63,488 nt of DNA, taken from Helicobacteraceae bacterium. Lineage in GTDB: Bacteria > Campylobacterota > Campylobacteria > Campylobacterales > Sulfurimonadaceae. Shown piece after piece: positions 59,190-63,488 of the stretch. The notes beneath the pieces were generated by a model. That model saw nothing but the letters and a program-made list of their open reading frames with translations, was not told the origin of the DNA and made no database searches. Numbering within the stretch: the first letter of the stretch is position 1; every line of letters begins with the position of its first letter. The DNA is taken from the NCBI GenBank assembly GCA_026988515.1, contig JALSLA010000016.1, forward strand, positions 1 to 63,488. The letters are read 5' to 3'. The position numbers were made by a program, and so were the translations under genes.

Positions 59190-59496
59190 GTAAAAAAACA
59201 ATGCGCAATGGGTATTGTTCTTTTTAAGTTGTGCATTGTAGATTCTAAATGTTCGGTACAGTAGCGCCTCTATCTCATTGTTACCCATGTCTTTTGGATG
59301 TTTTTATCTCTTAAAATATCAAGTAACTTTTTCTCTTTTTACAATCTAACTCTTTGTATGTATATTTATCACAAAATTGTATGGCTGTATAGCTTAACTA
59401 TATACTTACATAAAAAAATCCATTAAGTATGATTTTTTAGTATAAAATATTATTTTTTAAAACTTTCTATGATATAATTCATGGGATGAATAAATA
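59190..59496. other. Non-coding AT-rich boundary before the cassette array
   Basis: This 307-base stretch has no gene. Just after the thioredoxin-like stop is a hairpin with AACAAT at 59197-59202 and ATTGTT at 59214-59219 followed by CTTTTT, a weak terminator. An alternative 11-base pairing exists, ACAATGCGCAA at 59198-59208 with TTGTGCATTGT at 59229-59239 (one G-U). The right part is very AT-rich with TATAAT at 59473-59478, which could drive the first cassette. No integrase gene or clear attI site is seen. Confidence 0.45.
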
Positions 59497-59503
59497 GTTA
59501 GCT
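59497..59503 (+). other. Core recombination site at the left edge of cassette 1
   Basis: GTTAGCT fits an integron core site (G^TT...), placing the left boundary of cassette 1 after 59497. It is the exact reverse complement of the R'' box AGCTAAC at 60335-60341 that ends the same cassette, as expected when both come from one circular molecule. The first gene starts 18 bases later. Confidence 0.65.
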
Positions 59504-59515
59504 GTAAGAAGAAAT

Positions 59516-60340
59516 ATGAAGCTCTCAGAACGTACAATTAGTGCTATAGGAAAAATCATTACCGGTGATGAGAAGATTTCGCCATATCGAAGTGGCTCTC
59601 AGTTGGTGCGTCTTTTCAATGATTACGGTGCAAACGATGTGCATGGCCAGGGTTTTCCCTCGCGTTGGCAATATGCGGAAGATAAAATACGCTCGTTAAA
59701 TGGAACAGGAAGTATTGGTGCTTTGCTGCGCCAAGTTCTCGATCCTAGAGAATTCATGGATACTGAGTTTAATATAAACGAGGCGGTAAAGTATGTTAAC
59801 GCGAGGCTAAAATACGACGGATATGAAATTGTTATTGATAACGATCTAGCTAAAGTCCGCGACCTTTCCGGAGTTGCAGTTGATTGTCAACATCCTTTCC
59901 AGGGCTCAAAACAGGAAGGTCACCTTTTTATAGAAGAGCAAATTAAAAAGGCCGAAACAAAGATTAAAGAGGGTGATTATGATGGTGCAATTACAAATGC
60001 ACGAACACTGCTTGAAGCCGTATTAAAAGAGCTTGAGGTTACACTGGATACTGACTCATCGGAGTACGATGGTGATCTCCCTAAGCTTTATAAACGAGTA
60101 CAAAAGCTCCTTAACTTGGAACCAGGACGTCCTGATATAGAAGGCCCGCTCAAGCAAGTACTGTCAGGGTTAATAAGTATTGTTGGCGGTATAGCAGGCC
60201 TGAGTAATCGTATGGGGGATAGGCATGTTAGGTCATATAACCCAGCTAAACATCATGCTGTGTTAGTAGTAAATGCAGCAAAAACAATGGTAAATTTTCT
60301 TTTTGAAACTCACCAGTATCAAAAAGACAAAATCAGCTAA
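59516..60340 (+). CDS. Abi_C/HEPN abortive-infection-like protein (cassette 1)
   Basis: A 274-residue protein. The C-terminal part (about 155-265) matches the abortive-infection C-terminal type, with ITNARTLLEAVLKEL and a final helix carrying NRMGDRH. That motif is an Rx4H (R232 to H237), the catalytic pattern of HEPN ribonucleases. The N-terminal 130 residues are probably a sensor or regulator. Such proteins stop phage growth by cutting RNA in infected cells. The gene fills an 880-base cassette, starts 18 bases from the core site and stops inside R'' of its attC. Confidence 0.72.
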   Translation: MKLSERTISAIGKIITGDEKISPYRSGSQLVRLFNDYGANDVHGQGFPSRWQYAEDKIRSLNGTGSIGALLRQVLDPREFMDTEFNINEAVKYVNARLKYDGYEIVIDNDLAKVRDLSGVAVDCQHPFQGSKQEGHLFIEEQIKKAETKIKEGDYDGAITNARTLLEAVLKELEVTLDTDSSEYDGDLPKLYKRVQKLLNLEPGRPDIEGPLKQVLSGLISIVGGIAGLSNRMGDRHVRSYNPAKHHAVLVVNAAKTMVNFLFETHQYQKDKIS

Positions 60341-60383
60341 CAAGGCGCTTGTTCGGACGCAAACCTCCCGCAGGCCGCTATGT
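60335..60383 (+). other. attC-like site 1, with an altered core
   Basis: R'' is AGCTAAC (60335-60341) and the right core reads GCTATGT (60377-60383). Other cores here are GTT, so the second base has changed T to C. The site is short (49 bases). Its right half, from AAACCTCCCGCAGGCCG on, is almost the same as that of attC 3, but its left half is different and pairs poorly with it, suggesting a hybrid or damaged site. Whether it still recombines is doubtful. Confidence 0.5.
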
Positions 60384-60400
60384 GTATAAAAGGAATATAA

Positions 60401-62374
60401 ATGAATAGGGCTTATTACTCCAACACGATAAAAGTTTTTCTAAATGATCCAGAATCAAGCATTTTGGGTGAATTAACAATGAACCACTCAAATAGGTCTC
60501 TTGAAGATTTACAAATAAATGCTTGGCGAAAACAAATTCAGATATTAAAAAAACAATTACAGAACATTGAAGGAAAAATATATTTTGAATTTGCTATCCC
60601 AAGAATGGGTAAAAGAGTTGATAATATTATTATAGTCAACGATGTAGCCTTTATTGTTGAATTTAAGGTTGGAGATGGTGGCTATGAAAAACACGCGATA
60701 GAACAAGTTATAGATTATACTATTGATTTACAAAACTTCCACGAAGGTAGTCATCAAATCAAACTTATTCCTGTTTTAGTTGCTACTAATGCAAAAGAAT
60801 TTAACGAGCCTATCGAAAATATTCTGGCCTATAATAGTTCAGCAAAAGCGAACCAAGCCAACTTAAAGAATATCATTAATCAATTCGTAAACTCTTCAGA
60901 ACAAGCAATTGATGTAGATTATTGGGAAACCTCTATATATAAGCCTACGCCAACAATTGTAGAAGCTGCTCAAGCTTTATATAAAGGTCATAATGTAAAA
61001 GAAATTACAAGGTCAGATGCAGGAACAATTAATCTATCAAAAACAGCAGATTGTATAAATTCTATCATAGAAAATTCAAAAAGAAATAATCGGAAATCAA
61101 TTTGTTTTGTTACGGGTGTGCCTGGTGCAGGAAAAACTCTTGCGGGATTGAATATTGCTGTTGAGCGGATGAAAACAGATGAAGATGAACACGCAGTATT
61201 TCTATCTGGAAATGGACCATTAGTTGATGTTTTAAGAGAAGCACTAACAAGAGATGAAGTTACTACTGCCAAAGAATCAGGTGAAAAATTAACTAAAAAA
61301 GAAGCGGCAATAAAAGCTAACGCATTCATTCAGAATATTCACCATTTTAGAGATGATAATTTATTATCTGAAAAAGCACCTATTGAAAAAGTTGCTGTTT
61401 TTGATGAAGCTCAAAGAGCTTGGACTAAACATCAAGTAAGTTCATTCATGAAGAGAAAAAAAGGTGTGGAAGATTTTGATATGTCAGAACCAGAATTTCT
61501 TATTGATGTAATGAATAGACATTCTGATTGGTGTACAATTGTCTGTTTGATAGGTGGTGGTCAGGAAATAAATACAGGAGAAGCTGGTCTAGAAGAATGG
61601 ATAAGTTCCTTGCGAAAACATTTTGAAAATTGGGAAATTCATTATTCAAATTTAATTTTAGAAAGTGATAACTATTTAAAATCAGACGATACGAAAAATT
61701 GGTTAACAATAAATGGAATAAGTGAAAATGAATTACACCTTGCTGTCTCAGTTAGGTCTTTTAGGTCAGAAAAATTATCAAAGTTTATTCATGAGTTATT
61801 AAATATAGAAAAAAATAATGCAAATGATATTTATCAGATTTTAAAAAAGGATTATCCAATAGTTTTAACAAGAAATCTTGAAATTGCTAAAAAATGGTTA
61901 CGAGAGCAAGCAAAAGGAAGTGAGAGAATAGGACTAATTAGTTCATCAGGTGCAAGACGTTTAAGACCTTTTGGTATAGATGTGAAAAATGAAATTTCGG
62001 CACCTAATTGGTTTTTAAATGACAAAATGGACATTCGTTCTTCATATTTTTTAGAAGAAGTAGCAACAGAATTTGATATTCAAGGACTTGAAATTGATTG
62101 GGCTTGTGTTGCCTGGGGTGCAAATTTTTATCTGAATGGTGGAGATTGGAAATATCAAAATTTCAAAGGAGCTAAATGGCAGAATATTAATCAAGAAATT
62201 GACAAAGAATATCTTAAAAACACATACAGAGTCCTTTTGACAAGAGCAAGGCAAGGAATGGTTATTTTCATACCCAAAGGCAGTAATATTGACCATACCA
62301 GACCAAGTAATTATTATGATGATACTTATAATTATTTAAAAGAAATAGGGATTAATGAGATATATGACACATAA
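60401..62374 (+). CDS. DUF2075-type nuclease-NTPase (cassette 2)
   Basis: A 657-residue protein. The N-terminal 110 residues hold a PD-(D/E)xK-like nuclease pattern: D74 and the EFK of FIVEFKVG (E87, K89). Then comes a P-loop ATPase of the DUF2075 type with GVPGAGKT (239-246), the Walker B VFDEAQ (334-338), SVRSFR, and an Arg-finger-like LLTRARQG near the end. This resembles helicase/nuclease proteins of phage-defence islands. The GC content is clearly below that of flanking chromosomal genes. The stop lies inside R'' of attC 2, a typical cassette layout. Confidence 0.75.
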   Translation: MNRAYYSNTIKVFLNDPESSILGELTMNHSNRSLEDLQINAWRKQIQILKKQLQNIEGKIYFEFAIPRMGKRVDNIIIVNDVAFIVEFKVGDGGYEKHAIEQVIDYTIDLQNFHEGSHQIKLIPVLVATNAKEFNEPIENILAYNSSAKANQANLKNIINQFVNSSEQAIDVDYWETSIYKPTPTIVEAAQALYKGHNVKEITRSDAGTINLSKTADCINSIIENSKRNNRKSICFVTGVPGAGKTLAGLNIAVERMKTDEDEHAVFLSGNGPLVDVLREALTRDEVTTAKESGEKLTKKEAAIKANAFIQNIHHFRDDNLLSEKAPIEKVAVFDEAQRAWTKHQVSSFMKRKKGVEDFDMSEPEFLIDVMNRHSDWCTIVCLIGGGQEINTGEAGLEEWISSLRKHFENWEIHYSNLILESDNYLKSDDTKNWLTINGISENELHLAVSVRSFRSEKLSKFIHELLNIEKNNANDIYQILKKDYPIVLTRNLEIAKKWLREQAKGSERIGLISSSGARRLRPFGIDVKNEISAPNWFLNDKMDIRSSYFLEEVATEFDIQGLEIDWACVAWGANFYLNGGDWKYQNFKGAKWQNINQEIDKEYLKNTYRVLLTRARQGMVIFIPKGSNIDHTRPSNYYDDTYNYLKEIGINEIYDT

Positions 62375-62438
62375 CAAATCGTTGCACCTGACATTTTTCC
62401 GCTGCGCTCCAAAATTCAGGTGAACTTAAGCGTTAGTC
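62369..62438 (+). other. attC site 2, canonical
   Basis: R'' is ACATAAC (62369-62375) and R' is GTTAGTC (62432-62438), 70 bases overall. The inner arms are GTTGCACCTGA (62381-62391) and TCAGGTGAAC (62416-62425), which pair fully apart from one extrahelical G. That unpaired G is the hallmark of attC sites folded as single strands for integrase recognition. The loop between the arms is 24 bases. This is the best attC in the window. Confidence 0.78.
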
Positions 62439-62461
62439 GACATCAAAAATAGGAAAAAAAT

Positions 62462-63253
62462 ATGATAGATATGTCTTGGCATGACGCCATTATAAAAGTA
62501 TTAAAAGAATCAGACAGTGCAATGCGCTATACAGACATTGCAGAAAAGGTTGTAGAAGATAAACTTAGAGAGTCGGTTGGTGCAACACCAGCCGCAACTG
62601 TAAATGCATATATTACATCTTCAATTAAAAAAGATGGTACTAATTCACCTTTTATAAAAGTTGCTAAAGGTGAATATTTTTTAAGAGAAAAAATCGATAT
62701 TCCAGAAGTTCTTGTTGATGACAAAACCTTAATCGATGAAGATACTGAAGAACAAACACACAATTCAATCATTCAGGCTTTTGGAATGTTTTGGCAAAGA
62801 GATATGATAAATTGGACGCGAAGTCCAAATTTATTAGGAAAACAACAAATTGGTGCCGACTCTGTAAATTTTTCAGATCAACTTGGCGTATATCTACTTT
62901 ATGATGGACGAGATGTGATTTATGTTGGACGCTCTGTCGAGCGTCCTCTTGGGCTTCGTTTATTTGAACACACTCAAGATAGACTAAAAGGAAGATGGGA
63001 TAGATTTTCTTGGTTTGGACTACATCAAGTAACAGAAGATGGTAATCTACAAAAAATAGACATAGCTCCAACAGCTGATATAATTATCAGTACTCTCGAA
63101 GCCTTATTAATTGAAGGACTTGAACCTCCACAAAATAGAAAAAGAGGTGATGACTTTAATGCAATAGAATATCTCCAATCTGAAGACCCTGAAATTGAAA
63201 AACAAAGAATGAGAATCTTACTAGCTGATATGCAAACAAAGTTAGCTAACTAA
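62462..63253 (+). CDS. Winged-helix (HARE-HTH) plus GIY-YIG protein (cassette 3)
   Basis: A 263-residue protein with an N-terminal HARE-HTH-like winged helix (about 1-75: SWHDAIIKVLKE, then KVAKGEYFL) and an acidic linker. A GIY-YIG nuclease domain follows, with GVY at 142-144 and YVGRS at 154-158, then FEH near 168-170 and a conserved Glu in STLEALLIEG near 203. Likely a DNA-targeting nuclease, possibly restriction or defence. AGGA precedes the ATG. It sits alone in an 862-base cassette. Confidence 0.75.
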   Translation: MIDMSWHDAIIKVLKESDSAMRYTDIAEKVVEDKLRESVGATPAATVNAYITSSIKKDGTNSPFIKVAKGEYFLREKIDIPEVLVDDKTLIDEDTEEQTHNSIIQAFGMFWQRDMINWTRSPNLLGKQQIGADSVNFSDQLGVYLLYDGRDVIYVGRSVERPLGLRLFEHTQDRLKGRWDRFSWFGLHQVTEDGNLQKIDIAPTADIIISTLEALLIEGLEPPQNRKRGDDFNAIEYLQSEDPEIEKQRMRILLADMQTKLAN

Positions 63254-63257
63254 AAAC

Positions 63258-63300
63258 GACTAACGGCCTGCTGGCGTAAACCTCCCGCAGGCCGTTATGT
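63258..63300 (+). other. attC-like site 3, short with strong stem
   Basis: R'' is GACTAAC (63258-63264), exactly complementary to its cassette's own leading core GTTAGTC at 62432. R' is GTTATGT (63294-63300). TAACGGCCTGC (63261-63271) and GCAGGCCGTTA (63287-63297) form a perfect 11-base stem with a 15-base loop, so the spacers normally left unpaired in attC are paired here. At 43 bases it is shorter than usual for attC. Confidence 0.6.
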
Positions 63301-63372
63301 GCAATCCAAACATATTGACATTGTGAATAAAATTGAATATAATAATAAATATAAATATTCTAAGGGGTTGTT

Positions 63373-63488
63373 ATGAAAACTGTAACAATTAGAGTAGATG
63401 ATTCAATTTACAATATGATTAAACTTGCTGCAGAAGGTCAAAAGAGAAACCTTTCAAACTTTATTGAGTTTGCGACAATGCAGTATTT
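63373..63488 (+). CDS. Ribbon-helix-helix protein, likely antitoxin (partial, cassette 4)
   Basis: ATG at 63373 follows AAGGGG and reads MKTVTIRVDDSIYNMIKLAA onward to the right edge, 38 residues. The opening beta-strand and two helices fit the CopG/RHH fold of type II antitoxins. A toxin gene would be expected next but is outside the window. A TATAAT-like box (AATATAATAAT) precedes it. It occupies the start of a fourth cassette, 73 bases after the attC 3 core. Confidence 0.6.
   Translation, partial: MKTVTIRVDDSIYNMIKLAAEGQKRNLSNFIEFATMQY

Follow-up and report, generated by a model that had tools for sequence, protein, structure and literature searches.

Organization of the locus

The window, meaning the whole 63,488-nucleotide stretch of DNA that was analysed, is the whole of contig C16 (JALSLA010000016.1) in the draft genome (97 contigs, 97.8% complete) of a bacterium related to Sulfurimonas; the protein of a flanking gene is 76–79% identical to its named relatives, from MAGs labelled "Campylobacterales bacterium" and "Sulfurimonas sp." Contigs of this assembly overlap by 127 bases, which suggests that it was built from short reads. 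Near the right end of the window, a thioredoxin-like gene is followed by an integrase (intI) remnant, an attI region, and gene cassettes in one orientation with attC sites between them (Table 1). The earlier note had counted four single-gene units here. Three are complete, all on the plus strand, and the fourth is cut short because the window's right edge is the contig end, which falls inside cassette 4.

Table 1. Features of the array, with positions in the window unless contig C73 is named
Feature	Position	Strand	Remarks
intI 5'-end remnant	59263..59342	-	two colinear pieces; ~25 intervening codons lost, frame shifted, remainder of gene absent
attI region	59378..59500	+	core TGAATAAATA^GTTA at 59487-59500; recombination point at GTT of 59497
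TATAAT, candidate -10 of cassette promoter Pc	59473..59478	+	consensus scan; position about as in many relatives
Cassette 1 gene, AbiJ-like abortive infection protein (Abi_C)	59516..60340	+	Pfam PF14355 E 1.2e-19; PADLOC AbiJ E 8e-27
attC1	60335..60383	+	R'' AGCTAAC; R' GCTATGT, with its GTT mutated; site looks degenerate or chimeric
Cassette 2 gene, Schlafen group 3 helicase	60401..62374	+	Pfam PF09848 E 1.9e-83; PADLOC PDC-S41 E 8.5e-293, full length
attC2	62369..62438	+	canonical; best match of family attC model
Cassette 3 gene, HARE-HTH protein	62462..63253	+	Pfam PF05066 E 1.5e-15
attC3	63258..63300	+	short strong hairpin; z -6.6, 0/200 shuffles fold as well
Cassette 4 start	63294..63488	+	promoter and first 38 codons of RHH-type antitoxin from 63373; toxin's end on C73
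attC4	C73:50-118		first C73 site
Cassette 5 gene, HNH nuclease	C73, between attC boxes 124 and 817
attC5	C73:817-880

The cassette genes are mostly of defence-related types, with functions predicted from sequence; the label follows from the AbiJ and PDC-S41 matches (the latter a PADLOC candidate defence family) and from the link that toxin-antitoxin and nuclease genes generally have with defence. The cassette 3 protein also carries a GIY-YIG-like motif, GVYLLY...YVG, recognized by eye, and a sequence comparison with solved structures found no relative of it. Cassette 4 opens with a candidate promoter, TTGACA-17-TATAAT (63315–63343; 12/12 in a consensus scan), and its antitoxin fragment had no match among plasmids. 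The cassette 2 Schlafen helicase has a 75% identical counterpart on two plasmids of Persicobacter, a member of another phylum (CP012854.1 and CP012865.1), with no obvious attC alongside by eye.

Probable continuation on a second contig

The left end of contig C73 holds, in order, the 3'-terminal 14 codons of a toxin gene, the ACATAAC box, an attC that folds strongly, the HNH nuclease cassette, a last attC, and dsbD. In one relative (G210, locus L197), a whole toxin-antitoxin cassette lies between two attC sites, and it matches the window's tail at 93% and the head of C73 at 97%, with 336 bp between the two matches. This single cassette matches both contig ends, which makes it most likely that C16 and C73 are pieces of the same five-cassette array, a join made by homology across ~336 missing bases. 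The search for further attC sites that the earlier note proposed thus yielded two more on C73, where the boxes of cassettes 4 and 5 both pair 7/7. A continuation of the array rightward to an intI was ruled out, as the C73 array ends at dsbD.

The toxin-antitoxin cassette is found between attC sites in other relatives too, in one of them (G052) within the array of an intI. Across loci L195, L196, L197, L199, L201, L203, L212, and C73:50-118 the same cassette bears different attC sites, and its homology between relatives and the source genome ends at the R'' box, as if attC had been exchanged there.

Box pairing and attC sites

Pairing between the leading core of each cassette and the R'' box at its own end was the basis on which a cassette array had been proposed, and all three pairs in the window proved real: GTTAGCT (59497) with AGCTAAC (60335), 7/7; GCTATGT (60377) with ACATAAC (62369), 6/7, the mismatch lying within the GTT triplet of R'; and GTTAGTC (62432) with GACTAAC (63258), 7/7. 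For cassette 4, GTTATGT (63294) matches ACATAAC (C73:50), although GTTATGT is a common core and this pair is only moderately informative; for cassette 5, GTTAACC (C73:124) matches GGTTAAC (C73:817). In each box pair, the four bases that are free to vary agree; given the base composition, a single pair would do so by chance with a probability of ~0.004.

To score the attC sites, we built a covariance model from 25 attC sites, all of them from relatives, using the known attC stem in place of the automatic RNAalifold structure. Searched directly against the genome, the model overlooked the window's own attC2; we set those negatives aside and searched the genome stretches read instead (~1.76 Mb, also used for the motif and intI-remnant searches). 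The top match was attC2, both in the window (29.2 bits, E 0.0012) and in the whole ~1.76 Mb. It folds moderately better than shuffles (z -1.5), attC4 does so strongly (z -6.2), and attC1 shows no attC-like fold (z +0.66). The second match in the genome stretches read was attC5, at 17.7 bits and E 6.8, which is not significant alone. Rfam gave no match on the array region.

The array does not carry the common family attC type throughout: attC2 scores 29 bits against 50–79 for most family sites, and within the array the left half of attC5 alone is of that type, joined to a right half as in attC3. The sites attC1 and attC5 both appear to be either degraded or chimeric. A motif common to attC1 and attC3, CTCCCGCAGGCCG, recurs with at most one mismatch only at the left end of C73 within the 1.76 Mb, and among 228 family genomes it is present in the source genome only. 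Against plasmids, attC4 had no match. The Synechocystis plasmid pSYSM carries a site 86% identical to attC2 right after an AAA ATPase gene (NC_005229.1 82151-82216). In relatives' arrays, a stable near-palindromic element of 136–138 bp, perhaps a gene-less cassette, lies beside attC sites (L044, L051, L052, and L055).

An intI remnant beside attI

We looked for the integrase gene to the left of the array, where the earlier note had seen none. That holds for a functional intI; the left flank does, however, contain 5' debris of the gene. Its first piece reads KLLDILRDKN (family: KLLDIVRDKI) and its second HPKDMGNNEIEALLYRT / HPKDMGNNEIEALL (family: HPxEMGKxEIEQYL), and a family IntI HMM matches the remnant on two minus-strand frames. 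By blastn, the remnant aligns with the intI start of L009 (E 4e-9), the alignment extending to 59377; its alignment score exceeds all 200 shuffles for L009 and L020, but not for L010. In an nhmmer search over 1.76 Mb, 59304–59263 scored E 8.9e-4 and the second colinear piece was weak. The remnant sits between attI and the thioredoxin-like gene, the usual divergent position of intI, and because it occupies this place, an intI most likely stood here and was then lost.

No IntI over the TIGR02249 cut-off was found in the source genome, a draft in which some large-contig interiors were covered by the family search only, and what the integrase search did match there were weak, Xer-like recombinases. 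Given the 97 contigs and 97.8% completeness, there is a small chance that an intact intI lies elsewhere. Further intI debris occurs at C60:13981-14061 and C20:280-322.

Judged by its sequence, the GTTAGCT core at 59497 belongs to an intact attI of the family type. The exact 13-mer GAATAAATAGTTA occurs once in the genome stretches read, and of 27 distinct intI loci in relatives, at least 22 carry the motif TGAATAAATAGTT, with no more than two mismatches, on the strand opposite to intI and upstream of it; several of the remainder have too little upstream sequence to judge. The distance from this motif to intI is mostly 160–280 bp in relatives.

A cluster of defence genes whose intergenic repeats resemble attC by chance would not be an integron at all. 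Defence-type genes do often cluster, and attC1 lacks an attC fold; against this stand box pairing in five of five cassettes, the identity of attI, the match to the attC model, and the attC-flanked toxin-antitoxin cassette in relatives. The homology of attI and of the cassette in effect refutes such a chance origin.

The locus therefore combines clustered attC sites (attC2 by covariance model, attC3 and attC4 by fold, with boxes in all cassettes, where a CALIN calls for at least two) with no integron integrase gene nearby beyond the 5' remnant, and the CALIN reading of the earlier note stands. Of the parts of a complete integron, attI is in place (the 59487–59500 motif common to relatives' intI loci), and intI is represented by the remnant alone. 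Draft genomes are known to inflate CALIN counts (PMC9024848), and the second contig and the remnant are important for that reason. The array could in principle be a product of assembly or binning, a complete integron whose intI sits on an unbinned contig, since this genome is a draft and the repeats of arrays break assemblies. Yet the sequence covers the array at its two ends, with attI and intI debris on the left and dsbD on the right, so that only the ~336-bp gap is left to hold an intI, and we consider this explanation very improbable.

Loss of the integrase gene or relocation of attI

Sister genomes have carbonic anhydrase and hisD after the thioredoxin-like gene, and in them dsbD adjoins a divergent LamG gene. 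The source genome has its carbonic anhydrase/hisD and LamG neighbours on contigs C95 and C40 instead, which places the array at a rearranged junction. At the end of C95, upstream of carbonic anhydrase (L036:3400-4227), fragments resembling IS3-type and other transposases were seen by eye, and other contig ends carry exact repeats of parts of this insertion-sequence-like DNA. None of the three other genomes of the genus has an integron at the array's locus or an IntI over the cut-off.

The attI core TGAATAAATAGTTA, a 14-mer, occurs in at least 149 copies in the 228 family genomes (L222 and L223 are examples), compared with about ten for a reversed-pattern control, and 127 of the 149 copies among the matches listed have no intI within 450 bp. 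At least four copies lie 1.4–2.7 kb upstream of the shared toxin-antitoxin cassette. One second copy precedes an alanine dehydrogenase gene (L223), and no attC was found there. It is conceivable, if doubtful, that attI has been duplicated or relocated family-wide as an integrase-free docking site, with several intI-less arrays per genome served in trans and the array in the window being one of them.

For the locus itself, relocation would mean that a fragment with attI and the first intI codons was copied here, and that a trans-acting IntI, since lost or unbinned, inserted the cassettes. The over-representation of the core, mostly without adjacent intI, is compatible with this, as are the second copy of its own attI region that genome G024 carries without intI (L223) and the sister genomes lacking an integron at this place. 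Nevertheless, the intI 5' sequence is still attached here in normal order and orientation and shows internal decay, and no intact intI was found that could act in trans, making such a relocation distinctly unlikely.

Because attI is intact and intI debris lies at the expected place, we favour a chromosomal integron that has decayed into a CALIN through loss of the integrase gene, with attI still in place, and assign this reading a probability of roughly 85%. Weighing against it are the shortness of the remnant, of which one piece is significant alone and the other weak, the three same-genus genomes without an integron at the locus, and a C16–C73 join made across ~336 missing bases. Under integrase loss, a Sulfurimonas-family IntI, encoded divergently immediately left of attI (59497), would have captured cassettes at that site, and intI would later have been deleted save for ~80 bp of its 5' end, leaving five same-orientation cassettes between attI and dsbD on C73. 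The array is probably read from the attI-side promoter and from that of the toxin-antitoxin cassette, and would be frozen in this cell unless an IntI arrived in trans.

Comparison with known integrons

The earlier note knew of no well-described array of this kind in free-living Campylobacterota, but the suggestion that such arrays are undescribed there is not supported: 62 of 200 sampled genomes of the Sulfurimonas family encode an IntI over the curated cut-off (TIGR02249), Campylobacterota are among the integron-bearing phyla (PMC8618304), and Sulfurimonas autotrophica (In0 and a CALIN) and Sulfurovum NBC37-1 (two CALINs) appear in Table 1 of PMC10295459. The array is thus a clear further case of something already known, integrons having been recorded in this phylum before. 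CALINs have been proposed to arise, among other ways, by loss of intI (PMC8618304), and the locus offers a concrete route to one: with attI, intI debris, and array all in place, the loss may be read directly. It also adds an array of cassettes mostly of predicted defence types, and shows integrons to be common in a sulfur-oxidising bacterial family, whose attI sequence is given here.

Integrons of the Sulfurimonas family share with this locus the attI motif, the divergent position of intI, and the toxin-antitoxin cassette, whereas here intI is reduced to a remnant and most attC sites are not of the usual family type. The inactivated chromosomal integrons and CALINs of Xanthomonas (PMC12444791) are similar in that intI has been deleted or truncated in many lineages while the array was kept and is stable; our array differs in phylum and genomic site, in its mostly defence-type cassettes, and in the attI motif of Sulfurimonas relatives. 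Vibrio chromosomal integrons, described as anti-phage libraries (Science 2025 eads0768; Nat Microbiol 2025; as presented in PMC12444791), likewise contain defence-gene cassettes. According to that account, the Vibrio studies tested phage phenotypes, whereas here function is predicted, in an array that is short and has no integrase.
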